Source: Minisyncoccota bacterium
Lineage (GTDB): Bacteria; Patescibacteriota; Minisyncoccia; Phycocordibacterales; UBA9973
Length of the DNA stretch: 41,289 nucleotides
Reading direction: 5' to 3'
Assembly (NCBI GenBank): GCA_018062425.1
Contig: JAGOSH010000004.1
Coordinates: 1 to 41,289, forward strand
A program made the translations under genes and the position numbers. Of this stretch, positions 8 to 13,740 are shown in pieces. The notes under the pieces were generated by a model. That model was given only the letters and a program-made list of their open reading frames with translations, ran no database searches and had not been told where the DNA came from. Positions within the stretch are counted from its first letter, which is position 1; every line of letters starts with the position of its first letter.

Positions 8-805
8 TTAGGATTGCAAATACTTTTTTATATTCTCTTTGTGTTTATCGTAAGTTTCCGCGCAGTGGATACGGTGCTTTTTGTCGTGAATATAAAACAT
101 GCATTTAGTCTCTGCCGGATTGTACGCAGCTTTCAGAGCTTCAATACCTGGGTTGGCTATAGGTCCAGGAGGCAGACCTTTATACATATATGTATTGTAT
201 TCAGAGTCTATTTCCTTGTCCTCGGAATAAACCCTGGGCCACCAACCGTCTTCTTCGGTTCCTTTGGCATATTGCAGTGTGGCATCCATTTGTAGTTTCA
301 TCCCCGCCCAAATCCGGTTACGGATAATTCCGGAAATCAACCTCGCATCCTGCTTGCCAGCTGCCTCGCGTTGGATGATAGACGCTATCTTGATTATGGT
401 TTCTTCGTTGAGGACTTTTGAGTTTGGTTTTTTTATCTTGTCGGTCTGCTTTTCAAATTCAGAAAGCATGACAGCGGTCACGTCGGCTGGGTTATCATCC
501 TCATCGATCAAATACGTTTTCGGGAAATACTTTCCTTCAAGGTCTTCGGTGTTCATTGCCAAATGCGCGTTCAGGAAATTTTCTTTATCTCCCTCGTCCC
601 AGCCGAGTTTATCCCCTACCCGATCGGCTATTTCCTCTTTGCGCATCCCTGGATAAACTTGTACTACTTTCACCGAAGGATTCGCCAAATCCATGTAAAA
701 AGAAAGGTTGGCCAAATCACTAGCACTAAAACCGAGCTTCCACACCAAAGAGCCCAGACCCATGGTCAGTACAACAAGTATTAACAATAGGTGCTTGAGC
801 TTCAT
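8..805 (-). CDS. mltG: Endolytic murein transglycosylase, MltG/YceG-like
   Basis: This 265-aa protein matches the MltG (YceG-like) family, membrane-bound lytic transglycosylases that cut nascent peptidoglycan glycan strands. A single N-terminal membrane segment (about residues 5-25) is followed by the catalytic part. Visible family landmarks are the IIQREAA segment with the expected catalytic Glu (about residue 148), the LQMDATLQYA segment, the YNTYMYKGLPPGPIANPG block and the C-terminal H-rich end. It is shorter than the roughly 340-aa E. coli enzyme; the LysM-like N-terminal part is reduced. The start lies 6 nt after the stop of the upstream gene at 812-1342, so the two are probably cotranscribed from the promoter before 1342. 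No terminator is visible before the window edge. Family assignment is secure; activity is inferred. Confidence 0.9.
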   Translation of the reverse strand: MKLKHLLLILVVLTMGLGSLVWKLGFSASDLANLSFYMDLANPSVKVVQVYPGMRKEEIADRVGDKLGWDEGDKENFLNAHLAMNTEDLEGKYFPKTYLIDEDDNPADVTAVMLSEFEKQTDKIKKPNSKVLNEETIIKIASIIQREAAGKQDARLISGIIRNRIWAGMKLQMDATLQYAKGTEEDGWWPRVYSEDKEIDSEYNTYMYKGLPPGPIANPGIEALKAAYNPAETKCMFYIHDKKHRIHCAETYDKHKENIKKYLQS

Positions 806-3235: not shown

Positions 3236-3267
3236 GAAGGCCTCTGCAGTATGTCGCAGAGGCCTTC
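3236..3267. terminator. Strong rho-independent terminator, probably bidirectional
   Basis: A perfect 12-bp stem (3236-3247 with 3256-3267, GAAGGCCTCTGC arm) with an 8-nt loop. It is followed by TTTTCGTTT on the minus strand and GTTATTTT on the plus strand, so it can end both the gene at 2656-3195 and the leftward transcript from 3456-7946. It is also where the sequence changes from AT-rich to the higher-GC block. Confidence 0.85.
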
Positions 3268-3277
3268 GTTATTTTGA

Positions 3278-3449
3278 AACGGTTTAAAACCGTTGTGTTT
3301 TGTTGTCCCAACAGATAATTACATCGTTGAGGAAAAGAACTATATACTTGGTAATACTTATTACCAAGTCCCGAGCAAAGCTCGGATTTATTGCTACGAT
3401 TTATACCCGTGTAGCAGACTGTTGCGGGTTTGCTTGGTCAAAACCAAGC
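3278..3449 (-). other. Array of consecutive small hairpins in the 3' region of the leftward transcript
   Basis: Six inverted repeats lie one after another between the stop codon at 3456 and the terminator. Plus-strand positions are: 3432-3449 (GCTTGGT/ACCAAGC), 3392-3416 (TGCTAC/GTAGCA), 3371-3385 (CCGAGC/GCTCGG), 3346-3369 (11-bp arms ACTTGGTAATA), 3301-3312 (TGTTG/CAACA) and 3278-3294 (AACGGTTT/AAACCGTT). No open frame of interest lies here. The role is unknown; a structured 3' UTR or a processed RNA are possibilities. Confidence 0.6.
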
Positions 3450-3455
3450 CGTCCG

Positions 3456-4484
3456 TCATCGGGTTAAATGAACAAGCATCCGTAAATTGGCTTGAGTCTG
3501 CCAATTTAGAAACGGCCGGGTGGCCAGTTGAATGTTAAATTCAGCACCTTTGAGAATCCACAAACTTTTCGGAGAAAAAGCTCCGAAACCCATCACAAGC
3601 ACAAAACCATCTTCCCCTCTGTTTACCGTACGTCCCTCATGAACCTCGGTTATGTAATATTTCATGCCGAGGTAACCTCTGCACTCAATACGACTAACCG
3701 GCCGAAGTTCGTGATTGCCACGAATTTCGAACAGGAGACTGATCGTGTTCACGCTTCCAATACGAATCTTTTTCGGTTCCTTTTTCTTAATCCCGGTACA
3801 TGTATCACAAGTGATTACATAAGGATCAACAACTTCATCAGCAGCCAAAGAGCTTTCGGCGCGGACATTGAACTGAAAAAATCGCTGCATCCATGGGGCA
3901 AGTGAATCTGAGGACTTTTGTAAGTAGTATTGAGTCAAGCATCCCCCGATAGCAAACTCGGCCTTGGGACTATGGTGAGGGACGTTAAATTGGGTAACCA
4001 CATAACCCTTTGGTATAATGTAAGCACTATCTTTCCTTACAGGTGTTCTATCCAATGTGTCAATTTCGCACTCAACGGTCACCCACTTTTCTTTCTTGAC
4101 TACCTCACGAACAATCGCACAGTACACGGTATCAGCCCGATACGCAAAATAAAATACGTCCTGCTGATAAGTCCTGGATTTGCGCGGCGCACGATCGTGA
4201 ACCTTTCCCGAAACACATTCTGTCCACTTGAATCCTGGAAAGAACTGTTCATCAATTATCATGGGTTCTCCAACCTGTTTTTCGGTAGTACTATCGCCCT
4301 GTATAAAACTGACGAAAACCATACCGGAGGGACAAGGGCCCTGTGCAACTTTTTTGAGTGAGTCCGCTTGAAGCGAATCCCTCAGGGTTTGTGCAAAACC
4401 AAGTGCCGGCAGAATGAACATTGCCAGCAAAAGCGAAATTCTATTAAGTTGTTTCAATGTCAAAAGATTTGAAGCATGGCGCAT
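3456..4484 (-). CDS. Secreted protein of unknown function, Bacteroidota-like
   Basis: Protein of about 342 aa with a signal peptide (hydrophobic core ISLLLAMFILPALGFA, predicted cleavage before or near Gln-Thr) of the style common in Bacteroidota. No family is recognised. The mature part starts with a Cys-containing segment (GPCPSGMVFV), has several further Cys residues (a CDTC pair near the middle) and ends in roughly 110 residues rich in alternating polar and hydrophobic positions, consistent with beta structure. An ATG at 4523 would add 13 residues, mostly basic and Cys; 4484 is preferred because it places the signal peptide near the N-terminus, though the signal core is still about 15 residues in. 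It follows the SprB-repeat gene by 54 nt and is probably cotranscribed. Base composition is richer in GC than that of surrounding CPR genes. Confidence 0.65.
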   Translation of the reverse strand: MRHASNLLTLKQLNRISLLLAMFILPALGFAQTLRDSLQADSLKKVAQGPCPSGMVFVSFIQGDSTTEKQVGEPMIIDEQFFPGFKWTECVSGKVHDRAPRKSRTYQQDVFYFAYRADTVYCAIVREVVKKEKWVTVECEIDTLDRTPVRKDSAYIIPKGYVVTQFNVPHHSPKAEFAIGGCLTQYYLQKSSDSLAPWMQRFFQFNVRAESSLAADEVVDPYVITCDTCTGIKKKEPKKIRIGSVNTISLLFEIRGNHELRPVSRIECRGYLGMKYYITEVHEGRTVNRGEDGFVLVMGFGAFSPKSLWILKGAEFNIQLATRPFLNWQTQANLRMLVHLTR

Positions 4485-4538
4485 CTTCGGTGCGCATCGT
4501 TGGCATCGGTATTGACGCGCCATGCTGGTGTTTGAAAA

Positions 4539-7500
4539 TCAGTGAAATTTAACGCAGAACTTGGTTTGACTTCCAGATTCAGGCTCGTAATCCTCGCCGT
4601 TAACCCGGATGTTCTTAATTTGAACAAACCAAGTTTCGGGATCGACGTCAATATGCCCAACTGGAATCATAAAATCTGCGCTTGTCGAAAATCCTGCCTG
4701 ACCGGATCCCTGAGGATCTTGAGGTGAGAAGACTACCCAGTCCACACTTTCCACTTCTGATTGGTCGAAACCGTCAGGAGTGACTGTAATGTGAATCGAA
4801 TGTTCTCCGTTGTCGGGTACGATCAAAAGCTCGCAAGGCAACTTAGGCCGCGGACAGTAAGGCATCGGTACGAATACAGTTGCCGAAGCTGTACAACCGC
4901 CCTCGTTGGTCACAACAACTTGGTAGTTTCCGGATATTGGAGCTGCGACCGAAGCCGAGTCCGCACCAGGAATTTCCACGCCGTTAAAAAACCATTGAAA
5001 GCTGACCGAAAGCTGACCGAAATGGGCATACACCTTGCCAAAGGTATCGCAAGGAATCGAATCGAAGGTGAGCATCACCTCCGGTAAAGTGGGAAGCGGG
5101 CCAACCGTTACGCTATCGCGCACAGTGCAGCCGTTGCTACCAATTACTTCGAATCCATAAATACCAGGCAACACCGAAACAGTGTCCTCATTTCCAAAAA
5201 CGGAATTGTCCCACCACAGCATTGCGCCGGGCGTGGTTGAAACCGTTACGGTTTGAAATGTGTCGCCACACTTCGTAGGGCACAGATTCGGGTAAGCCGA
5301 CGGAGCAGTCTTGGTCACAACCGTAAAGGTCACGAGTGAATCGCAGCCACCGGTTGTAAACAAATTCTCTTGGTAGTCGTGAGCCAATTCTCCGAAGATA
5401 ACATAACGCCATGCGCCTGCGATCCAAATCGAATCGCCTTCGCATAAGGAGTACGAACCGAGCGACGTAAACGCCGGTTGGTCAGGACTGTAAATTACGA
5501 TGGTATCGCCAGTGCAAGGTAATGAATCGGAAATAATTTGCACTGAGTCCCACATCATAGGGTTACATACTTTACGGGTCAAGTAAACGTCATTCGTAAA
5601 CGGCAGAAACTGAAGGATCAACGTTTGATTACCGCCACACAGACCGCCGTTCGGACGGATAATAGTTGTGTCGGAATAAAACGGAAGGCCGTCAACATAG
5701 AGGGGTTCACCAGCGCATGCGCGCAGGGTGTTCGTCGTGTTAACAGGCTCATCCACAAACACTTCAATTTTCACCAAAGTGTCGCATTCCTCTTCGGTTG
5801 CTGCTGGTAAAGTAAATTCGTTGACACCGGGCATAAGCACGTGACCATAGGCGGTAGCCGTCTGGCCAGCACAGATGTGCCGGGTATCGAACAAACTCAC
5901 TTGTTCCCGATTTTGAACCGTTACATATGCGAGAATATCGCAATCTGTAGAGTCCTCTGCCGGGATGATTACCTCGTAGGCAGTCGATACAGGCGGAAAG
6001 GCCTGACCGTTGAACCATGCCAATTCCCCAGGGCATACCGTAAGCGTTACGGACTTGGTCGGTTGTTGGCGTTCTTGCACTGAAAGGTGCATTGTCGCCG
6101 GGCAGCCGTTGGTTCCGATTACGGGAATCTGATACGCACCGGGAATGTATTGCGAGCCGTTGAAGGTCGCACTACTACCGGGACAAACATTGATTACAGA
6201 GTCGAGCGTTTGGCTCTGAATAACTCTGAGATCAAGTATGAAATGCGTACAGGTGTTCGTATCGTAGTCCGTGTGCAGACCTGGGTTGCGCATTTGTCCA
6301 CGCCACAGGATTTGGTCCTGGGTGGTGCAAACGCTGTCAGTTTTAATAGAATCAACTTCTGGCTTAATAACAAGCAGACTGTACTCCTGCGTTTGAATGC
6401 AGGTGTTGTTGTCTACCGTCAAATCGCCGAGGAGTTGGTGTTCTTTGTAAAACTGTCCGCAAGTCGTGTCGGTGTCGATCAATTGCAGATTGAACTGCCA
6501 GGGCTGAGTACGGATGTCGGTCTGTTGAATGAAGTCGCCGCAGCCATCCATGTCGAAATCAACAATAGAGGTGAACGAATAGGTTGTATCAACCATTCCT
6601 CCACACACTTTCATTGAATCAGCAGGTAGGGCAACCGGCGGCAAGCCAAATACAATTTGCCAGGTAAACGTACCGGGACAGTCTCCCGATGTGGGCACTG
6701 TCACAGTCGTGCTGGTATTGTACGTCTGGCTTCCAATTTTCACATTGGTCCCGAAGCAGGGATTAATCATCATGGTATCTGAACCGGAGTTCATAACCAC
6801 GATACTTATTTCCTGCACAAACGGGCAACCGTCGGCGGTAAACAGGTTGTTGGTGATAGTGGTCGTTTGATTGTACCAAAGACCGTTAACCCAACCACCA
6901 TTGCAAAACACATGACAAACTTTCTCATTAACCGGAGCATCCGAATCTGTGATTATCGCGGTTGTAGTTGCAGTGCAACCATTGTTCGCGAGAAAACTTA
7001 CGGAGTACACCCCCGCGCTGAGGCCTGTCAGGGTGGCCGGACCCTGGAGGATTTGCATCCATCCATTCGGGCCGGTAACAGTGATGGTGCCGGATTGCGG
7101 AGTCGTGGTAATCGCGAGTTTGCCATTTGCCGAACCGCAAGTCGTTGCGGTCGTGATAGCGGAAACAGTTGGCGGAACGGAGGGAGCAATCGTAAACGTG
7201 CCTGTTTTGGTACAACCGTTAGCGTCGGTGACGATGACGGTGTAAGTACCAACTTGCAAATTCGAAATGCTTGCCGTGTTCGCCGTAAAACCATTCGAAC
7301 CTTGCCAGCTGTAGCTGTAAGGGAATGTGCCACCAGTGGGCGCGACCGTAATGTTTCCCAGATTGCTGTTGCAACCGGGCTGAGTCACGTTCTGGTTAAG
7401 GTTAATGTTCGTGAGAATGTTCTGCACGTCCACATAACCCTCGGCTGTACACAAGTTGGCATCCGTTACGGTAACTCCATAGAGACCAGGGACCGCAAGA

Positions 7501-7946
7501 TTCGAAATGTTAGCCGTCGTTGCGGTAAAACCATTGGGTCCGTTCCACAGATAAGTGACGGGGTATTCCGCTTCGTAAACTTGCGTCACAGCGGCCGAAC
7601 CTTTCTTGTCGCAACGGATGTTTTCCTGCGTCAGGTCCAGGTAAGGCTGATTGGTCCAGATGTCGAATTGCAAAGTAAGACAGAGGCAGTGGTCAGCACT
7701 TATATACACGCTGTAGTGACCAGCACATAGGCTGTCGCGGTAAGGATTTACGGAAACAAATCCGTCCGACCAGTAAAACAGGCCGGTAAAGTCGGGACAA
7801 AGCCCGGTGATCTGTACGGTACCTGTGCAGGGCCCGTAACAGTTTGTCGACGTTGTTTGGACGCCGATTTGTGCTGTGGCGTTCGATTGACCCAAAAGGA
7901 TCAAGAAGGCAGACAGCAGGATTGAGAAAAGAGATTTGTTGAACAT
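4539..7946 (-). CDS. Large secreted SprB-repeat surface protein, Bacteroidota-like
   Basis: Protein of 1135 aa with a signal peptide (FSILLSAFLILLGQSNATAQ). The N-terminal third holds about four tandem SprB-type repeats (roughly residues 28-98, 104-175, 182-255 and 258-330), each with PVTYLWNGPNGF- and LxxGxYxVxVTDANxC-like motifs. SprB repeats are typical of adhesins and gliding-motility surface proteins of Bacteroidota. The rest consists of Cys-containing beta modules with repeated C-x-G-(E/D/Q) motifs and WxNGxxxxP or FNGxx phrases; one late module (about residues 990-1070) resembles an Ig-like domain. The C-terminus lacks an obvious T9SS sorting domain or membrane anchor. An in-frame ATG at 8045 would add 33 residues before the signal peptide; 7946 is preferred for that reason, although a TAAAAT box lies 12 nt before 8045. 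Higher GC and absence of a local-style start signal suggest transfer. Confidence 0.82.
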   Translation of the reverse strand: MFNKSLFSILLSAFLILLGQSNATAQIGVQTTSTNCYGPCTGTVQITGLCPDFTGLFYWSDGFVSVNPYRDSLCAGHYSVYISADHCLCLTLQFDIWTNQPYLDLTQENIRCDKKGSAAVTQVYEAEYPVTYLWNGPNGFTATTANISNLAVPGLYGVTVTDANLCTAEGYVDVQNILTNINLNQNVTQPGCNSNLGNITVAPTGGTFPYSYSWQGSNGFTANTASISNLQVGTYTVIVTDANGCTKTGTFTIAPSVPPTVSAITTATTCGSANGKLAITTTPQSGTITVTGPNGWMQILQGPATLTGLSAGVYSVSFLANNGCTATTTAIITDSDAPVNEKVCHVFCNGGWVNGLWYNQTTTITNNLFTADGCPFVQEISIVVMNSGSDTMMINPCFGTNVKIGSQTYNTSTTVTVPTSGDCPGTFTWQIVFGLPPVALPADSMKVCGGMVDTTYSFTSIVDFDMDGCGDFIQQTDIRTQPWQFNLQLIDTDTTCGQFYKEHQLLGDLTVDNNTCIQTQEYSLLVIKPEVDSIKTDSVCTTQDQILWRGQMRNPGLHTDYDTNTCTHFILDLRVIQSQTLDSVINVCPGSSATFNGSQYIPGAYQIPVIGTNGCPATMHLSVQERQQPTKSVTLTVCPGELAWFNGQAFPPVSTAYEVIIPAEDSTDCDILAYVTVQNREQVSLFDTRHICAGQTATAYGHVLMPGVNEFTLPAATEEECDTLVKIEVFVDEPVNTTNTLRACAGEPLYVDGLPFYSDTTIIRPNGGLCGGNQTLILQFLPFTNDVYLTRKVCNPMMWDSVQIISDSLPCTGDTIVIYSPDQPAFTSLGSYSLCEGDSIWIAGAWRYVIFGELAHDYQENLFTTGGCDSLVTFTVVTKTAPSAYPNLCPTKCGDTFQTVTVSTTPGAMLWWDNSVFGNEDTVSVLPGIYGFEVIGSNGCTVRDSVTVGPLPTLPEVMLTFDSIPCDTFGKVYAHFGQLSVSFQWFFNGVEIPGADSASVAAPISGNYQVVVTNEGGCTASATVFVPMPYCPRPKLPCELLIVPDNGEHSIHITVTPDGFDQSEVESVDWVVFSPQDPQGSGQAGFSTSADFMIPVGHIDVDPETWFVQIKNIRVNGEDYEPESGSQTKFCVKFH

Positions 7947-8122
7947 GTTGAATGAATTTTGAATCTTGCGATTCGTTTGTGGAATGGATGTGAATTTCTT
8001 CACCCATTCAATCTGCTCTCCATCCATTCCGGGATTAGCGAGCATTTCGAATGAGTGATTTTATCTTAAACTCGCGCGAGGCGAGGGATTCAAGTCTGGG
8101 TCTCAATCTAAAAGATCAAGAA
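7947..8122. other. Leader of the SprB-repeat gene, with inverted repeats
   Basis: No convincing gene. It contains a perfect 10-bp inverted repeat at 7981-7990 and 8021-8030 (GGAATGGATG/CATCCATTCC, 30-bp spacer), the self-complementary decamer CTCGCGCGAG at 8071-8080, and a minus-strand TAAAAT at 8058-8063 that could be a -10 box. Composition changes back toward AT-rich at about 8090-8130, so the right edge of the foreign block lies near here. Confidence 0.45.
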
Positions 8123-8167
8123 GGCAGGAGAAAATTTTCAAAATATTTTTCAAAATTTTCTCCTGCC
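8123..8167. repeat. Long hairpin in the leader of the SprB-repeat gene
   Basis: Perfect 16-bp arms (8123-8138 and 8152-8167; arm GGCAGGAGAAAATTTT). The 13-nt interior can pair further (AAAA/TTTT), giving about 20 bp in all. Read leftward it is followed by a weakly T-rich tract. It lies between a predicted minus-strand promoter at 8381-8409 and the SprB-repeat gene. It shares the core AGAAAATTTTC with the hairpin at 10428-10503. Confidence 0.65.
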
Positions 8168-8380
8168 ACCCAGCACACATCGTCCATTTTCATCTATCAT
8201 GTCCTTCTTCTTTCTTTTCAAATCTTTCTTTCTATTTACCAAAAACGGTAAATGTCTATATCCACTATATTTCAAGCGGATTTTTAACTTTCTATGAATA
8301 CCAGATGTTCCCCCCTACCCCATATAGGGGTTACTTGGAGAATATTAGGTACCTTTTTCGAAGTACACTTTAACCTATAC

Positions 8381-8409
8381 AATATAGCATGTTTTCCATA
8401 AAAAGTCAA
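8381..8409 (-). promoter_or_regulatory. Promoter reading leftward toward the SprB-repeat gene
   Basis: On the minus strand TTGACT (8404-8409), a 17-nt spacer and TATATT (8381-8386) with an extended TGC just upstream. The predicted start is near 8374, giving a leader of about 430 nt to the ATG at 7946. The form is the same as that of promoters in front of resident genes here (for example rpoB), not of the Bacteroidota TTTG/TAnnTTTG type. The remaining sequence from 8168 to 8438 holds only a small hairpin (8235-8252), a short palindrome (8317-8331) and a pyrimidine-rich run. Confidence 0.55.
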
Positions 8410-8438
8410 TACCTAGGCTTGACGCGCAGGATGAATCA

Positions 8439-8484
8439 CTTCGTATATTACGAAGCAGGAAAAAGACTATAAAATATAGACTTT
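8439..8484 (-). terminator. Tandem hairpins after the Clp-like gene, probable terminator
   Basis: Two stem-loops: 8462-8484 (9-bp arms with one mismatch) followed on the minus strand by five T residues, then 8439-8455 (CTTCGTA/TACGAAG). They lie 27-73 nt after the stop of the leftward Clp-like gene. An extended -10 (TGC-TATAAT, minus strand, about 8502-8510) sits between that stop and the hairpins, so a very short RNA could also be made here. Confidence 0.5.
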
Positions 8485-8511
8485 ATTTGATTTGAACCTA
8501 TTATAGCATGT

Positions 8512-10407
8512 TTATAGAATCTTTATGATATTGTCCGGGCTTACCTCCCCACGGATCAACATATCAGCTACTTTGTTCTCCACAATATCCTCTATGGCGC
8601 GGTGAATGGGTCGGGCGCCGAAATCCGGGTCAAATCCAGCGGAGGCTACGCGCTCCAGAAGCTCAGGAGTAACCTCGAGGGTTATACCCTTCTCAGCTAG
8701 TAACCTGGTTTTGAATTCATTGAGCAGAAGTTCAGCTACTTTCTTTACACCAGACTCACCGAGTGGTTTGAAAAGCACAATGCCAGAGAAACGGTTCAGA
8801 AATTCTGGCGAGAACATTCTATTCTGTATTAACATATCTACCAGTTTTTTCTTTTCAATGTTTGAGTCCGCTATGATTTCCCTACTGCCAGCGTTCGATG
8901 TAGCGATGATTATGGATTCTTTGAAGTTTGCAGTGCGTCCCGATGCACGGGTCAGACGTCCTTCGTCGAGGACTTGCAGAAGTAGGTTGTGCACTGCGCG
9001 GTCAGCTTTCTCGAGCTCGTCAAAGAAAACCAAGGAAAGTGGTTTCTCTTCGATGAGAGCACACAGTCGATCAGAAAAAGTTTCCACCGAACTCGAGTCT
9101 ACGAATTCACTCATGTCGAAACGCACCATGGCGTCTTTGCGTCCGAAATAACTTTCGGCCAAAATCTTCGCAGTATATGTTTTACCAACTCCAGTTGGTC
9201 CGAGGAAAAGGAACGAACCTGCGGGTTTGCTCGGGTCGGCAACACCGGCTCGCATACGCTTCATGGCGTCAGCTAGGTCACGTACGGCTTCGTCTTGGCC
9301 GACGATTTTCGCATGCATGTTTTCATACAAGTTTAACAAAATAGACTTTTCATCTTGAGACAAAGCACCTACAGGAATATTCGCTTTGTCGGAAATTATT
9401 TGCTTCACATCATCTATCGTCACCGGACGTCCTAGTGCGCGCAGTTCATCGATGATGGTTATGGACTTTTGTGGTTCAGATTGGTTGCCGATGTAGCGTC
9501 CCGCCAGACGCACGAGTTCACCGATAGTTGATTTGTCTATTTTCAAACCATGCAAACCTGAATAGTTTGAAATTATTTCCACCGTCTCTTCAAAGCTCGG
9601 CGGGAATATGTCTACTTTTTCAAACTTGGACAAAAATTCCGGATGCGCTTTGAGCACACTGTCGTGTCCGCCAAAGTCTGTGGTAGCGATGATGGATAAA
9701 TTTTTACTATTTAGATATGGCAAGAACTTTTCATACAAATCGGGATACTTTTCTATGTTCTTTAAAACCAATATTACGTTGCCTGCATCCCGGGATTCGT
9801 TCAGAGATTTCTCGATATTTTCATAGGCCATGTTCTCTATCGGTAGTTCTACCACTCGGTGATGCATGATACCTTTCTCAGACAAACCCGACTCCCCTAG
9901 TTTACCCAAGTAATCGATCAGAGTTTCTTTACCAACGCCGACATCCCCAACCAAAAGCACATTGTGGTCTGTGTCTTTACTAAGTCCGAGCAAAATCATC
10001 CGCATGGCGCGGTCTTTACCATAGAGTTTTAGTTCGCTCGGCAGGCTGACATCGTGACCAAAACGATTTAAGAAAAAAGTATTACCATAAGATAATTCGG
10101 AGCCAATGCTACCTACCTTTAGCAACGAATCACGACTGATGTCGATAGGTAGTAAAAAGAAAATTGGATAAGTCAAAATGACCAGTAGCGTAAGCGCAAG
10201 TCCGAGGACAATGAACACGCTTCGTGCCACAAAACCAAATGCTCGGATAAAAATCGCAAAGAGTGCATTCTCCCACCATTCGGCATTGTCAGCACCGGCA
10301 CGGTCCATCTGCCACGGAGCGAAAAGAGTTTTAAAAAGTACTGGGATAGAGAAAAAGTTGAACGCCCACACGACTAGATTCTTCCACGATTGAATGCCTT
10401 TTTTCAT
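8512..10407 (-). CDS. Membrane-anchored ClpA/C-type double AAA+ ATPase
   Basis: A 631-aa protein with hydrophobic N-terminal segments (about residues 11-30 and 47-87) in place of the usual Clp N-domain, then two AAA+ modules. The first has a Walker A (GDVGVGKE, 154-161), but its Walker B position reads VILVLKNIEK (211-220) without the Asp-Glu pair. The second is intact: Walker A GPTGVGKT (403-410), Walker B LVFFDELEKAD (459-469), an ATSNAGS sensor region, a PEFLNRF arginine-finger region and the C-terminal D2-small domain with GARPIHRAIE. ClpA/C proteins unfold substrates for ClpP; here the machine would act at the membrane, with D1 perhaps only binding nucleotide. The ATG is 6 nt after an extended -10, predicting a leaderless mRNA. 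No clpP is in the window. Confidence 0.85.
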   Translation of the reverse strand: MKKGIQSWKNLVVWAFNFFSIPVLFKTLFAPWQMDRAGADNAEWWENALFAIFIRAFGFVARSVFIVLGLALTLLVILTYPIFFLLPIDISRDSLLKVGSIGSELSYGNTFFLNRFGHDVSLPSELKLYGKDRAMRMILLGLSKDTDHNVLLVGDVGVGKETLIDYLGKLGESGLSEKGIMHHRVVELPIENMAYENIEKSLNESRDAGNVILVLKNIEKYPDLYEKFLPYLNSKNLSIIATTDFGGHDSVLKAHPEFLSKFEKVDIFPPSFEETVEIISNYSGLHGLKIDKSTIGELVRLAGRYIGNQSEPQKSITIIDELRALGRPVTIDDVKQIISDKANIPVGALSQDEKSILLNLYENMHAKIVGQDEAVRDLADAMKRMRAGVADPSKPAGSFLFLGPTGVGKTYTAKILAESYFGRKDAMVRFDMSEFVDSSSVETFSDRLCALIEEKPLSLVFFDELEKADRAVHNLLLQVLDEGRLTRASGRTANFKESIIIATSNAGSREIIADSNIEKKKLVDMLIQNRMFSPEFLNRFSGIVLFKPLGESGVKKVAELLLNEFKTRLLAEKGITLEVTPELLERVASAGFDPDFGARPIHRAIEDIVENKVADMLIRGEVSPDNIIKIL

Positions 10408-10413
10408 GGATTT

Positions 10414-10422
10414 ATTGTAACA
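10414..10422 (-). promoter_or_regulatory. Extended -10 of the Clp-like gene, leaderless
   Basis: On the minus strand TGT-TACAAT with the -10 at 10414-10419 and 6 nt to the ATG at 10407. No clear -35. It abuts the long hairpin at 10428-10503. Confidence 0.5.
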
Positions 10423-10427
10423 CGCGG

Positions 10428-10503
10428 CAAACGAGTTTAGAAAATTTTCGAATGGTCTAGGGATTGTTTCCTATACCCTCGAAAATTTTACTAAACTCGT
10501 TTG
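10428..10503. repeat. Long near-perfect hairpin upstream of the Clp-like gene
   Basis: Arms 10428-10451 and 10479-10503 pair throughout with a single one-base bulge (core AAAATTTTCGA). The interior adds eight positions (10454-10461 with 10470-10477) with one mismatch, for about 31 base pairs in total. It lies between the candidate sRNA terminator and the Clp-like promoter. It is not followed by a T run in the leftward direction, so it is not a typical terminator. No target-site duplication was seen. Confidence 0.7.
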
Positions 10504-10525
10504 TCTGATAAAATTTACCCAAAGC

Positions 10526-10600
10526 AAAACAAAAACCGCCCGAAGGCGGTTTTTGCGGCACATACATTTTTTGAATAAGTGAGGAAATCCTCACACTCAC
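10526..10600 (-). ncRNA. Candidate small RNA of about 75 nt, divergent from rnpB
   Basis: A promoter on the minus strand (TTGCAA, 17-nt spacer, TGC-TATAGT, -10 at 10607-10612) predicts a start near 10600. A classic terminator ends the unit: stem 10531-10554 (AAAAACCGCC arm, GAA loop region) followed by T-rich sequence on the minus strand. The body has a perfect 7-bp hairpin (GTGAGGA/TCCTCAC, 10579-10594 region) and no plausible reading frame. Nothing else on the minus strand upstream needs this terminator, which supports an independent RNA. No known family is recognised. Confidence 0.5.
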
Positions 10601-10606
10601 GAGACT

Positions 10607-10658
10607 ACTATAGCATACATCGAAAAAAATTGCAAGTGTTTGAAACTTGTGTTAAAGT
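10607..10658. promoter_or_regulatory. Bidirectional promoter with one shared palindromic -35 box
   Basis: TTGCAA at 10630-10635 is its own reverse complement. On the plus strand it is followed after 17 nt by TAAAGT (10653-10658, preceded by TGT), with a predicted start at about 10665, the 5' end of RNase P RNA. On the minus strand it is followed after 17 nt by TATAGT (10607-10612, preceded by TGC), with a predicted start near 10600. The same TTGCAA-N17 arrangement occurs in front of rpsB. Confidence 0.6.
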
Positions 10659-10664
10659 TTTTGC

Positions 10665-10955
10665 GAGATGTTGGGTAGTTGCTCCGACGTTACGTCGGAG
10701 AGGAAAGTCCGAACATTCGCTCTGACGCAAGTCAGAGAAGCGTAGCGGGTAACCCCCGTCCACCGCGAGGTGTGAGGTGCGAACAGAGACGAGCCGCTTA
10801 AGTGCGGGTGAAACGGCTAAATCCTTACGTGAATGCAAGATCGTGCTCCGACTTCGGTTGGAGAGAATCGCTTGAGGTTATTGGTAACAATAATCCTAGA
10901 CAAATAACTGCCATCTACCGCAAGGTGGAAACAGAATTCGGCTTATAGACATCTC
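10665..10955 (+). ncRNA. rnpB: RNase P RNA
   Basis: RNA component of RNase P, which removes 5' leaders from tRNA precursors. The conserved 5' block GAGGAAAGTCCGAACA lies at about 10709-10724 and the conserved 3' block ACAGAATTCGGCTTATAGAC at 10931-10950. The ends pair (GAGATGT near 10665 with ACATCTC at 10949-10955), forming helix P1. The central part has the expected GCGAGGTGTGAGGTGCGAACAG-like and GGGTGAAACGG elements, consistent with a bacterial type A RNA; I did not fold it fully. At about 291 nt it is shorter than the 377-nt E. coli RNA. Promoter and terminator are both visible. Confidence 0.95.
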
Positions 10956-10965
10956 AAAAAGTATG

Positions 10966-10996
10966 AAAACCCCTCGCCTACACGGCGAGGGGTTTT
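10966..10996. terminator. Rho-independent terminator of rnpB, bidirectional
   Basis: Perfect 13-bp stem (10966-10978 with 10984-10996; arm AAAACCCCTCGCC) and a 5-nt loop, with a T run on either strand. It lies 10 nt after the end of rnpB and 14 nt beyond the stop of the convergent small gene at 11010-11243, so it can serve both. Confidence 0.9.
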
Positions 10997-11009
10997 CTGT
11001 TAAAAAGGT

Positions 11010-11243
11010 TTATTTTTTATTAAAAGGCCAGTTGGACAGCAAAGTGCTTACCTTGGCTTTATCCCCTTTTTCTATAGCATCATTCACTATCTTTTTAAAT
11101 TTTTCTTCCGGCATACTGGCTAGAAGTTGTTGCAAATCTTCATCGGTAGCTTCAGCCGGCAAGTCATTTGTACCGTTTTGAGATTTCTGTTCAACGATTT
11201 TACCTAACATTTCTCTGGCAAGATATTTTTTGAAAGGTTCCAT
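11010..11243 (-). CDS. Small hypothetical protein
   Basis: A 77-aa, highly charged, probably helical soluble protein (start MEPFKKYLAREMLGKIVEQ, then acidic and LxxLLASMPEEKFKKIVNDA-like helices). No family recognised. Its start is supported by a minus-strand TATAAT (11250-11255) 6 nt before the ATG and by a shared terminator 14 nt after its stop. The regular helical pattern and proper signals make it more likely real than chance. Confidence 0.65.
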   Translation of the reverse strand: MEPFKKYLAREMLGKIVEQKSQNGTNDLPAEATDEDLQQLLASMPEEKFKKIVNDAIEKGDKAKVSTLLSNWPFNKK

Positions 11244-11290
11244 TTGAATATTATAACTTATTAAAAATAATTCAGAAACATACCACCTAA

Positions 11291-11326
11291 AAACAAAACA
11301 ACCCGGAAGTCTTGGAGACTCCCGGG
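11291..11326 (-). terminator. Strong terminator of the PKD-repeat gene
   Basis: On the minus strand a 10-bp stem (11317-11326 with 11302-11311; CCCGGGAGTC arm, one G-T pair) with a 5-nt loop, followed by TTGTTTTGTTTTT. It lies 50 nt after the stop at 11376. The palindrome CGTTTTAAAACG at 11333-11344 precedes it, similar to the AACGGTTT repeat after the first foreign block. Confidence 0.88.
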
Positions 11327-11375
11327 CATGTTCGTTTTAAAACGGTTAGAAACTAAAAATTATTCCTTCGTAAAT

Positions 11376-13415
11376 CTACTGTTCGTTCACAATCATCTTT
11401 TCGGTTGCCTCAACGCGGCCAGTGGCGTCCAGAATTTGGACAAATTTCACGCCGGTACTAAGGCCATTAAAGGTTACGGTACCAGAACTGCGGAACGGAT
11501 TCGGGAACGCCGTAAACTCTTGTTGCCGGTCACCGACGGGTTCAACGGCATTCAAGACAGTAAGGGTTTTCACGATTTGATCCTGGTTTCCACACGCATC
11601 GAAAACTTTGAGCTTAACCAAATACACCCCGGCTTGAGCATAAGAGTGCGAGGGATCTTCATCGGTTGAAGTGCCTCCGTCGCCAAAGGTCCAGAAGTAC
11701 GACAAACCAGTGCCTACGGATGTGTTCGTGAACTGAAGGTTCAGACCTCCCGATTGCGGCAAGTTGAATTGCGCATCGAGCGGTCCGCAGAAAAATACGG
11801 TCACGATTTTGGACACTTGGTGCGTCGCGCCACAATTATTGGTGACCTTGAGGGTCACAGTGTAGCTGCCGGAAGTGGCATACGTGTACGTCGGGTTTTG
11901 CGCTGTGCTAGTCGCGCCGTTGCCGAAATTCCACAAGTAGGTCAGGCCGTTGCCGGTTGAACTGTTTGTGAAGGTTGCGGTTGCTCCGTTTGTCGCAAAT
12001 GTAAATGCGGCGGTCGGAGGCGGGCACTGAATCGTGATCGTCTGCGTAAATATCGAAGTGTTGGTCACACCGTTACAGACGTTCGTTGCAGTGAGTGTCA
12101 CGGTCCATGTGCCCGGCTGATAGGCATGCGTCGGGCTTGCGGACATCGAAGTCGTGTTATCGCCGAATGACCACATATACGATGTAGCATTTTGCGACGT
12201 ATTCGTGAAAGTCACAAGCGGGCCGTTCACACTGAACGTAAAGCCGGCAATCGGCAAAGGGCATGGAGGTGCACATGCGGACATGTCCACCTCCACACCA
12301 GGATTCATAGCAACACAGTTGTTTCCGTCGGTCACAGTCACGGCATAAATGCCGTTCGGTGCGTTGTTGATCGTTGGGGTTGTAGCCCCGTTGGACCAAA
12401 GCGCAATCGGTGTCGAAACGGATACAGTTGTAACGTCGTTGGCGCGGACAACTTTGATAATCGCGCTCGGAGCCGGAAAAGCGATGACCGTTTTGCTCAA
12501 ACTGGAAGAACAACCGCCGGGTACATTGGCAGTGACTGTAAAAGTACCACCGGTAGTCGTTGTCATGCTCGGGCCGGATTGGCCGTTGGACCATGTGTAC
12601 GTCGTGTTCGGGACATTACTGCTTGCAGTCAAAGTAACAGCCGTGTTCGGGCAAAAGCCTGCTGGGCCGGAAATTGAAATATTCGGCGCCTGACTCATGC
12701 TAACGTTGACGGAAGCAGATCCGTTACAGCCGCCGCCGTTTGAAACGGTTGCGGTGTAGAGACCAGGTTGGTTTACGGTAATGGTCCAGTTAGTTGAAGT
12801 ATAGCCGTTCGGGCCACTCCAAATAACCTGACTACCACCAGATGCCGTCAGAGTTGCGAAGGATCCGGAACAAAAATTCGGATTGCCGGAAATCGTAGCC
12901 GTGATGTTGTTCTGGGACATCCAAATGGTCGCATCTGCGAACCAACTACAGCCATCGCCGCCAGTGCCTTGTACCCAGATATCGGTTTGGGTGCTGAAGG
13001 AAATGGTTTGGTTTGGGGCTGTGCTGTTGTTCCACCACAAAAAGTTTACCGGGGTAACGCCGAGGGTTTGAGTGCCAGTCAGCGTCGTAAAGTCGCCTGG
13101 GCAAATGGGATTTGCGCTGGTAATCAAATTACCCGCACAAGCTCCTCCCATAAATTCGGCGATACTCAGGACTTTTTGAACAGCGGAATCAGCGTTAAAA
13201 GCATCCGCGTCGAATCCCTCCGGGGTCATATACGGCGTAGCGAGGATTTCGAGTACGGTACGGCCGCTCGTTTTGGAACAGATTTGATCCAATTTTTCGA
13301 AGGCCGTTGTGTGTTCGGGAAATTCCGCTACGAGTTTGACCAAGGGGTTGCTTTGCGCCCAGGAAAACATCGGAAGGGTGAAAAGCGCGAGAATAAGAAC
13401 TGTGAGTTTTTTCAT
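11376..13415 (-). CDS. Secreted PKD-repeat surface protein with short T9SS-type C-terminus, Bacteroidota-like
   Basis: A 679-aa protein. Signal peptide 1-20 (cut near FSWAQS). Residues 21-100 form a unique helical region with Cys. Residues 100-380 are Ig/SprB-like modules (WSNGQSGPS, GLYTATVSNGGGC, GIYAVTVTDGNNC). Three PKD domains follow at about 387-463, 467-541 and 546-621, with YMWSFGDN, YLWNFGNG and YFWTFGDG signatures. Residues 633-679 begin FTAFPNPF and continue TVTFNG and VQILDATGRV, the hallmark of a type A T9SS sorting domain, but the final GIYF-type segment is absent, so the domain is short (about 46 rather than 70-80 residues). T9SS is known only from Bacteroidota-group bacteria. 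Higher GC, the signal-peptide style and lack of a Shine-Dalgarno sequence point to transfer. Confidence 0.85.
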   Translation of the reverse strand: MKKLTVLILALFTLPMFSWAQSNPLVKLVAEFPEHTTAFEKLDQICSKTSGRTVLEILATPYMTPEGFDADAFNADSAVQKVLSIAEFMGGACAGNLITSANPICPGDFTTLTGTQTLGVTPVNFLWWNNSTAPNQTISFSTQTDIWVQGTGGDGCSWFADATIWMSQNNITATISGNPNFCSGSFATLTASGGSQVIWSGPNGYTSTNWTITVNQPGLYTATVSNGGGCNGSASVNVSMSQAPNISISGPAGFCPNTAVTLTASSNVPNTTYTWSNGQSGPSMTTTTGGTFTVTANVPGGCSSSLSKTVIAFPAPSAIIKVVRANDVTTVSVSTPIALWSNGATTPTINNAPNGIYAVTVTDGNNCVAMNPGVEVDMSACAPPCPLPIAGFTFSVNGPLVTFTNTSQNATSYMWSFGDNTTSMSASPTHAYQPGTWTVTLTATNVCNGVTNTSIFTQTITIQCPPPTAAFTFATNGATATFTNSSTGNGLTYLWNFGNGATSTAQNPTYTYATSGSYTVTLKVTNNCGATHQVSKIVTVFFCGPLDAQFNLPQSGGLNLQFTNTSVGTGLSYFWTFGDGGTSTDEDPSHSYAQAGVYLVKLKVFDACGNQDQIVKTLTVLNAVEPVGDRQQEFTAFPNPFRSSGTVTFNGLSTGVKFVQILDATGRVEATEKMIVNEQ

Positions 13416-13469
13416 GACGAATCAGAAATTTTAATGATATGAATGTTGAGTTAACTTCTTACTTCACCA

Positions 13470-13539
13470 CGAAAAAAATCGGTGAGAAGCAGCATTTCGA
13501 GCATTTTGTAAAAAAAATGCGCAAAATGCTACTTCTCAC
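13470..13539 (-). terminator. Long hairpin with T run in the leader of the PKD-repeat gene, possible attenuator
   Basis: Inverted repeat 13482-13539: about 26-bp arms with mismatches (GTGAGAAG/CTTCTCAC, AGCATTT/AAATGCT, GCATTTT/AAAATGC). On the minus strand it is followed by CGA and seven T residues (13472-13478), as in a rho-independent terminator. It lies between the predicted promoter at 13581-13609 and the ATG at 13415, so it would end transcription before the gene unless antiterminated. Confidence 0.6.
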
Positions 13540-13580
13540 TTAGTCAAAGGAATAATTTTCAAAGAGCAAAAACTGTCGCA

Positions 13581-13609
13581 ACCATAACATATTAAGGATA
13601 AAATGTCAA
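13581..13609 (-). promoter_or_regulatory. Promoter reading leftward toward the PKD-repeat gene
   Basis: On the minus strand TTGACA (13604-13609), 17-nt spacer and TATGGT (13581-13586) with extended TGT. Predicted start near 13574, leader about 160 nt. A TAAAAT 12 nt before the ATG at 13415 is a weaker alternative. Confidence 0.55.
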
Positions 13610-13680: not shown

Positions 13681-13740
13681 GTTGACCCCGTCAGAAGTCG
13701 CGATGGCTCGTAGCGACCCCCTACTTCTAACGGGGTTGAC
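13681..13740. repeat. Inverted repeat overlapping the -35 box of the surface-protein operon
   Basis: Arms ACCCCGTCAGAAGT (13685-13698) and ACTTCTAACGGGGT (13723-13736) pair with one mismatch, and flanking GTTGAC copies extend the pairing with G-T wobbles to about 18 bp. The right arm runs into the TTGACA at 13736-13741. It could be an operator or a mobile palindromic repeat; other copies outside the window would decide. Confidence 0.6.

Follow-up and report, generated by a model that had tools for sequence, protein, structure and literature searches.

Type A cargo proteins of the Bacteroidota type IX secretion system (T9SS) carry a Sec signal peptide, a body of Ig, PKD or SprB-type repeats and a C-terminal sorting tail of the family TIGR04183/PF18962 with a seven-strand fold. 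SprA is the translocon of this system, and in the P. gingivalis proteins studied a complete seven-strand tail is needed for function. Gene transfer from Bacteroidota to Patescibacteria has already been documented (PMC12455944, PMC10031880); the accessible parts of those papers contain no description of T9SS tails. The locus analyzed here has the same donor phylum and recipient group. It lies in a window of 41,289 nucleotides, bases 1-41289 of the 57-kb contig C9, from a bacterium of the candidate phyla radiation (CPR; Patescibacteria). Two blocks of exported proteins were found in this window where an earlier note on the DNA had placed them, P0001 and P0002 in block 1 (3.4-8.0 kb) and P0004 in block 2 (11.4-13.4 kb), with native genes between. 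The C terminus of P0004 is a T9SS type A tail in shortened form. We consider it fairly probable that both blocks are Bacteroidota-type exported genes acquired by the CPR bacterium under local control signals, that P0004 is a former T9SS cargo, and that such tails are kept by selection.

Genome and samples

The genome (G000; 529 kb in 10 contigs) had an estimated completeness of 75.5% and a contamination of 0.25%. Near-complete relatives within the genus measured 0.5-1.0 Mb, in agreement with the CPR label of the earlier note; we infer both the CPR status and the envelope type of the organism. Other G numbers denote related CPR genomes, C numbers contigs and L numbers extracted regions. The relatives sample held 197 CPR genomes (about 80 from the genus, 39 from other genera of the family and 78 from elsewhere in the order; denominators from handle numbering), the phylum-wide even sample 287 genomes, and the Bacteroidota-type controls for SprA eight genomes. 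Score cut-offs were 23 bits for TIGR04183, 35 bits for TIGR04131 and 28 bits for the SprB repeat.

P0004 and its sorting tail

P0004 (11376..13415, minus strand) was identified by its open reading frame and profile scans as a 679-aa exported PKD-repeat protein. Its N terminus, MKKLTVLILALFTLPMFSWAQ, reads as a Sec signal peptide, and three PKD domains were recognized (PF18911, 151 bits). The G+C content of the gene was 52.3%, against an average of 41.2% (sd 4.1) over the genes of its own genome, and its codon usage was the most atypical, with the lowest codon likelihood, of the 320 genes. The sorting tail (11376..11510, minus strand) was seen with TIGR04183 and in alignment A4 and group D; the TIGR04183 match of 26.8 bits exceeded the cut-off and covered profile positions 2-35 of 72 only. 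In the alignment, the first strands (FPNP...DATGR) and the last strand (TEKMIV) were present and the middle was gone, so that P0004 lacked the complete set of seven strands that was seen in G041. An AlphaFold model of the whole protein was poor (mean pLDDT, the predicted local distance difference test, 46), the tail not being resolved.

Judged from its sequence, P0004 is a degenerate relative of T9SS type A cargo and not a working cargo; its tail probably no longer serves, or else acts in a reduced form. In HBP35 the targeting signal was mapped to the last 22 residues (PMC11285876), and since P0004 retains the last strand, a reduced working form is conceivable. The lost middle would also suit passive baggage, in which partner DNA was taken up, the adhesive bodies were kept and the T9SS tail is a decaying leftover, a course of events that we rate as somewhat unlikely. 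P0004 and P0001 look recent by their atypical composition and by lacking an evident Shine-Dalgarno site such as the native P0005 possesses, and the documented transfer from Bacteroidota to Patescibacteria (PMC12455944) fits such uptake as well. Most tails among the relatives, however, were full length, and a leftover would not be expected to show the conservation described below.

T9SS tails among CPR relatives

Type A tails (TIGR04183) occurred in 62 of the 197 relatives, namely 24 genomes of the genus, 27 from the rest of the family and 11 from the rest of the order. In the phylum sample they were found in 15 of the 287 genomes, eight of these above cut-off. Most of the tailed open reading frames in the extracted regions had a signal-peptide-like N terminus and a C-terminal end no more than 14 residues from the tail match. 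SprA was detected in none of the 197 relatives, including the genome itself (about 76% complete), and the same search recovered it from all eight controls.

The identity of the tails was supported by profile and fold. A profile of CPR tails (A4), all 32 members of which matched TIGR04183, found the solved T9SS tails 8glk, 8glj, 5hfs, 8qb1 and 5y1a. The predicted structure of the G041 tail had a pLDDT of 96.5 and seven strands, the number in the published fold, a 3+4 sandwich (PMC11285876); its best fold match was 8glk_D, the tail of the cargo NucA bound in a T9SS complex (template modelling score 0.83). Outside the CPR, tails of the NYPNPFNP kind resembled those of Ignavibacteria and other Bacteroidota. 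The tail tree was uninformative, the Bacteroidota set having been drawn with one tail motif.

Type B tails above cut-off were present in just 2 of the 197 relatives. In the genome itself, the 488-aa exported protein of C10:117988-119451 (plus strand) ends in a type B tail that is complete (TIGR04131, 41.2 bits, residues 408-488). It resembles T9SS type B proteins (TIGR04131/PF13585) in its full-length domain above cut-off and differs from the usual ones in having a CPR bacterium as host; its contig is not that of the blocks. Ahead of it lie an exported gene of 127 aa and a perfect hairpin of 14 bp. Separately, C5:35394-37790 (plus strand) of the same genome encodes an M1 aminopeptidase for export, its signal peptide being of Bacteroidota style, and G123, from another family of the order, carries 10 type A tails on contigs C14, C15 and C19, several of them in tandem.

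Conservation of the tails and joining to CPR-type repeats

A second locus, with a tailed gene and 6-11 flanking orthologues, was common to G003, G028, G006 and G022. The tails at this locus were 61-71% identical and the bodies 20-42%; the ratio of nonsynonymous to synonymous substitutions (dN/dS) was 0.08-0.20 in tails versus 0.35-0.52 in bodies, a rough ratio with dS near saturation. The tail was the best-conserved part of these syntenic orthologues, which speaks against a decaying leftover, and by this comparison of sequences it is retained by selection at one locus at least.

CPR-type Ig repeats like those of P0005 were found between signal peptide and tail in G022 and G037, and weakly in G170, and none was seen in 80 Bacteroidota-type loci searched for them, which speaks for domain joining within the CPR and again counts against passive baggage. 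Such joining would also suit a resident display system, in which the CPR cell took over the tail to anchor proteins to its own surface or S-layer and the T9SS of a partner is uninvolved. The predicted tail is a small, stable Ig-like sandwich and has held its place at the very C terminus, behind Ig/PKD bodies, as an anchor might. However, no CPR receptor or sortase turned up, although none was sought, and several type A flavours coexist with type B in the family, a mix that a single native receptor would not predict. We hold recruitment as a native anchor to be unlikely.

Synteny of the P0004 site

The native anchors of the region were P0003 (8512..10407, minus strand), an AAA (ClpB/ClpA-like) gene between the blocks whose homologues in 16 further species of the genus match over the full length at 57-62% identity; rnpB, the RNase P RNA gene (10663..10961, plus strand; Rfam RF00010, 128.6 bits), at the same position in G041 and G015; P0005 (13845..16868, plus strand), a CPR surface protein in which there are five Ig repeats of CPR type; and a YceG-like gene (8..805, minus strand). 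A tailed Bacteroidota-type exported gene occupied the exact site of P0004 in two other species of the genus. In G041 the order was P0005 homologue, tailed gene, rnpB, P0003 homologue and YceG homologue, and the tail was full length (43.8 bits with TIGR04183). In G016 the order was P0003 homologue, tailed gene, P0005 homologue and further window genes, and the tail showed a loss of the same kind as in P0004. G015 had a native-looking 365-aa gene at the site of block 2. P0004 was just 29-31% identical to the same-site genes of G016 and G041, so the site holds either one old acquisition with fast divergence or was filled more than once.

An assembly join was rejected by this synteny, the site being occupied beside the same conserved neighbours in other species, and the earlier note's argument against a single chimeric join was borne out. 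Binning contamination with a Bacteroidota genome or an assembly chimera might be suspected from the atypical G+C content and codon usage of both blocks and from some tails of relatives lying near contig ends. Native genes flank both blocks, however, and contig C9 holds rpoB, TGT, YceG, rnpB and other ordinary chromosomal genes; tailed genes were also found among conserved neighbours in the interior of 100-336 kb contigs, and they were strongly enriched in one family. An artefact of this kind is highly improbable. The earlier note had further held that close homologues in the same context across many CPR genomes, with no Bacteroidota affinity, would refute its reading. The outcome was mixed: the site is occupied in two other CPR species, yet by genes whose affinity is clearly to Bacteroidota (T9SS).

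Two further observations concern the native anchors. In G066 (C9:6463-7995), the P0003 homologue lies within a frame free of stops, given as 24,549 aa long, in a very long open region of about 74 kb. In the window, a further hairpin (GTTGACCCCGT...ACGGGGTTGAC) at 13690-13740 lies upstream of P0005.

Block 1

P0001 (4539..8045, minus strand; open reading frame and profile scans) is a 1168-aa exported repeat protein whose start is likely near 7946 (MFNKSLF...NATAQ). P0002 (3456..4523, minus strand), a 355-aa exported protein, follows 18 nt after P0001 as the second gene, so that one large gene per block, as the earlier note had it, holds for P0004 and not for block 1. Of the SprB and PKD repeats that the same note described, the PKD part stood and the SprB part was marginal, P0001 scoring 29.9 bits in a six-frame search and 23.1 bits when the protein was scanned with hmmscan (cut-off 28). 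The weak repeat would be a likeness to SprB-type adhesins, from which P0001 differs in that a profile scan found no T9SS tail and no gliding machinery is expected. P0002 had no family match in profile scans, and no relatives were found among viral contigs. Signal peptides, noted before as Bacteroidota-style, were plainly read from the sequences of the block genes (...NATAQ, ...GFAQ, ...FSWAQ). The higher G+C content also held: P0001 had 50.0%, the 99th percentile of its genome, P0004 likewise lay at that percentile or higher, and the composition of P0002 was milder (45%) than that of P0001 and P0004.

In G041 and G015, YceG directly follows the P0003 homologue, showing that block 1 and its four small neighbours are absent there. 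The proposal that the blocks arose by repeated acquisition or by duplication was upheld for acquisition more than once. Duplication of a single cassette was rejected, P0001 and P0004 sharing at most a short run of repeats, one 45-residue match of 14.9 bits.

Promoters, leader hairpins and terminators

Each block has a promoter in the resident style, with a 17-nt spacer and a TG element, as had been described, TTGACT-17-TATATT for block 1 (8381..8409) and TTGACA-17-TATGGT for block 2 (13581..13609), both on the minus strand. They ranked top of the promoter scan; however, the 16 promoter-like sites in total matched the chance level (15.4, sd 3.3), and promoters alone are therefore no proof. Intrinsic terminators, also anticipated, end block 1 (3267-3236, i.e., 3236..3267, minus strand; a 13-pair stem and a T tract) and block 2 (11327-11301, i.e., 11301..11327, minus strand).

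The leader hairpins, likewise reported earlier, had stems far beyond those of shuffled sequences and shared a plan of an outer stem of 16-18 bp, one 1x1 mismatch and an inner stem. That of block 1 (8123..8167, minus strand) has a 16-bp outer and a 4-bp inner stem (z -8.2; model R1 30.7 bits, E 8e-5), and that of block 2 (13482..13539, minus strand) an 18-bp outer and a 7-bp inner stem (-34.9 kcal/mol, z -9.1), with a syntenic counterpart in G016. An Rfam scan of the window gave just rnpB and a tRNA at gathering scores, the hairpins matching no family. An integron attC site was considered and dropped on stem anatomy, attC anatomy not fitting an 18-bp continuous stem with one mismatch.

The case for a recurrent leader rests on enrichment, on model matches outside the training set and on an unselected alignment of syntenic leaders. 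An upstream hairpin score of at least 18 was found for 36% of 61 CPR tailed genes versus 8% of 447 other genes of the same regions (P = 2e-5), and for none of 54 Bacteroidota tailed genes. A leader model was built from 11 leaders, including those of P0004 and of a lipoprotein gene (C9:46956-47011) and leaving out that of P0001; its top three places in the genome were the P0004 leader, the lipoprotein leader and the P0001 leader. Matches occurred in 22 of the 197 relatives, several of them upstream of exported genes outside the training set. Some were tied to ordinary genes, for example upstream of an M20 peptidase gene and near an aminotransferase gene (G082, G078; L300, L301), which extends the leader beyond the genes of exported proteins. 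The best match in 560 kb of Bacteroidota-type DNA, at 23.6 bits (E 0.009), did not clearly exceed the noise. In the unselected alignment of syntenic leaders, 4 of 24 pairs showed compensated changes, and two leaders of G061 differed by a compensated change from C-G to T-A. Pair counts on alignment A3 were not relied on, the sequences having been picked for hairpins, which makes the counts circular. Within the genome itself, 14 Bacteroidota-like exported genes, picked subjectively by eye, had stronger upstream hairpins than 178 genes (P = 0.008). Two lipoprotein-like genes of this genome without a Pfam match, C6:24334-25659 (plus strand) and C9:46018-46929 (minus strand), each begin 20-26 nt after a long leader hairpin.

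Discussion

Like Bacteroidota type A cargo, the proteins described here combine a Sec signal peptide and Ig/PKD/SprB-type bodies with a tail of the same family and fold; they differ in that the CPR genomes have no detectable SprA, the P0004 tail is shortened, some bodies hold CPR-type Ig repeats and a CPR leader hairpin lies upstream. Repeated acquisition from Bacteroidota is the best reading of these sequences, and exported genes would have been taken up several times. They may be expressed under the CPR cell's own kind of signals, namely promoter, structured leader and terminator, the protein being made in the CPR cell and then exported via Sec across its membrane. P0004 would be a former T9SS cargo, with Sec signal peptide, Ig/PKD repeats and reduced sorting tail, within a lineage-wide set of Sec-exported proteins that carry T9SS tails in CPR bacteria in which SprA was not detected. 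The Ig, PKD and SprB-type repeats would probably act as adhesins or a surface coat at contact with a Bacteroidota partner. An intact tail would be kept by selection, most likely through binding in trans to something outside the cell, for which the best candidates may be PorV and PorU, tail-binding surface proteins of the partner's T9SS attachment complex (PMC11285876).

Several points weigh against this explanation. The middle of the domain is missing from the tails of P0004 and its G016 counterpart, which may have left the tail without function here. At a third locus (G065 and G067), dN/dS was 0.31 in the tail versus 0.23 in the body, showing no extra tail constraint, as passive baggage would have it, and near-saturated synonymous sites make all of these ratios rough. 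A tail sequence by itself does not demonstrate function. The absence of a T9SS rests on SprA, the single T9SS part searched, and tails may in part be species-specific (the forsythia tail; PMC11285876). The Bacteroidota partner organism is inferred. The searches made with P0001, P0002 and P0004, which did not extend to Bacteroidota genomes, yielded no donor for them. A stronger version of the favoured explanation is doubtful: the T9SS surface complex of a partner might capture CPR proteins that bear the partner's T9SS address once Sec has exported them, and perhaps attach them covalently, which would amount to cross-organism sorting.

The T9SS tail, its spread across the family and the conservation of the leader go beyond the account of the earlier note, and a literature search, with most subscription journals and all preprints outside its scope, gave no paper on T9SS tails in CPR bacteria. 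To our knowledge, no partner is known for most CPR bacteria, and of the proteins that they use for contact only a few are understood. The T9SS tail marks one donor group, and the tail type, Ignavibacteria-like versus Bacteroidia-like, could fingerprint the partner lineage. The common leader hairpin suggests a shared 5' element used by the CPR cell for many acquired exported genes. Constrained tails in cells without a T9SS give a prediction that is directly testable in Bacteroidota.

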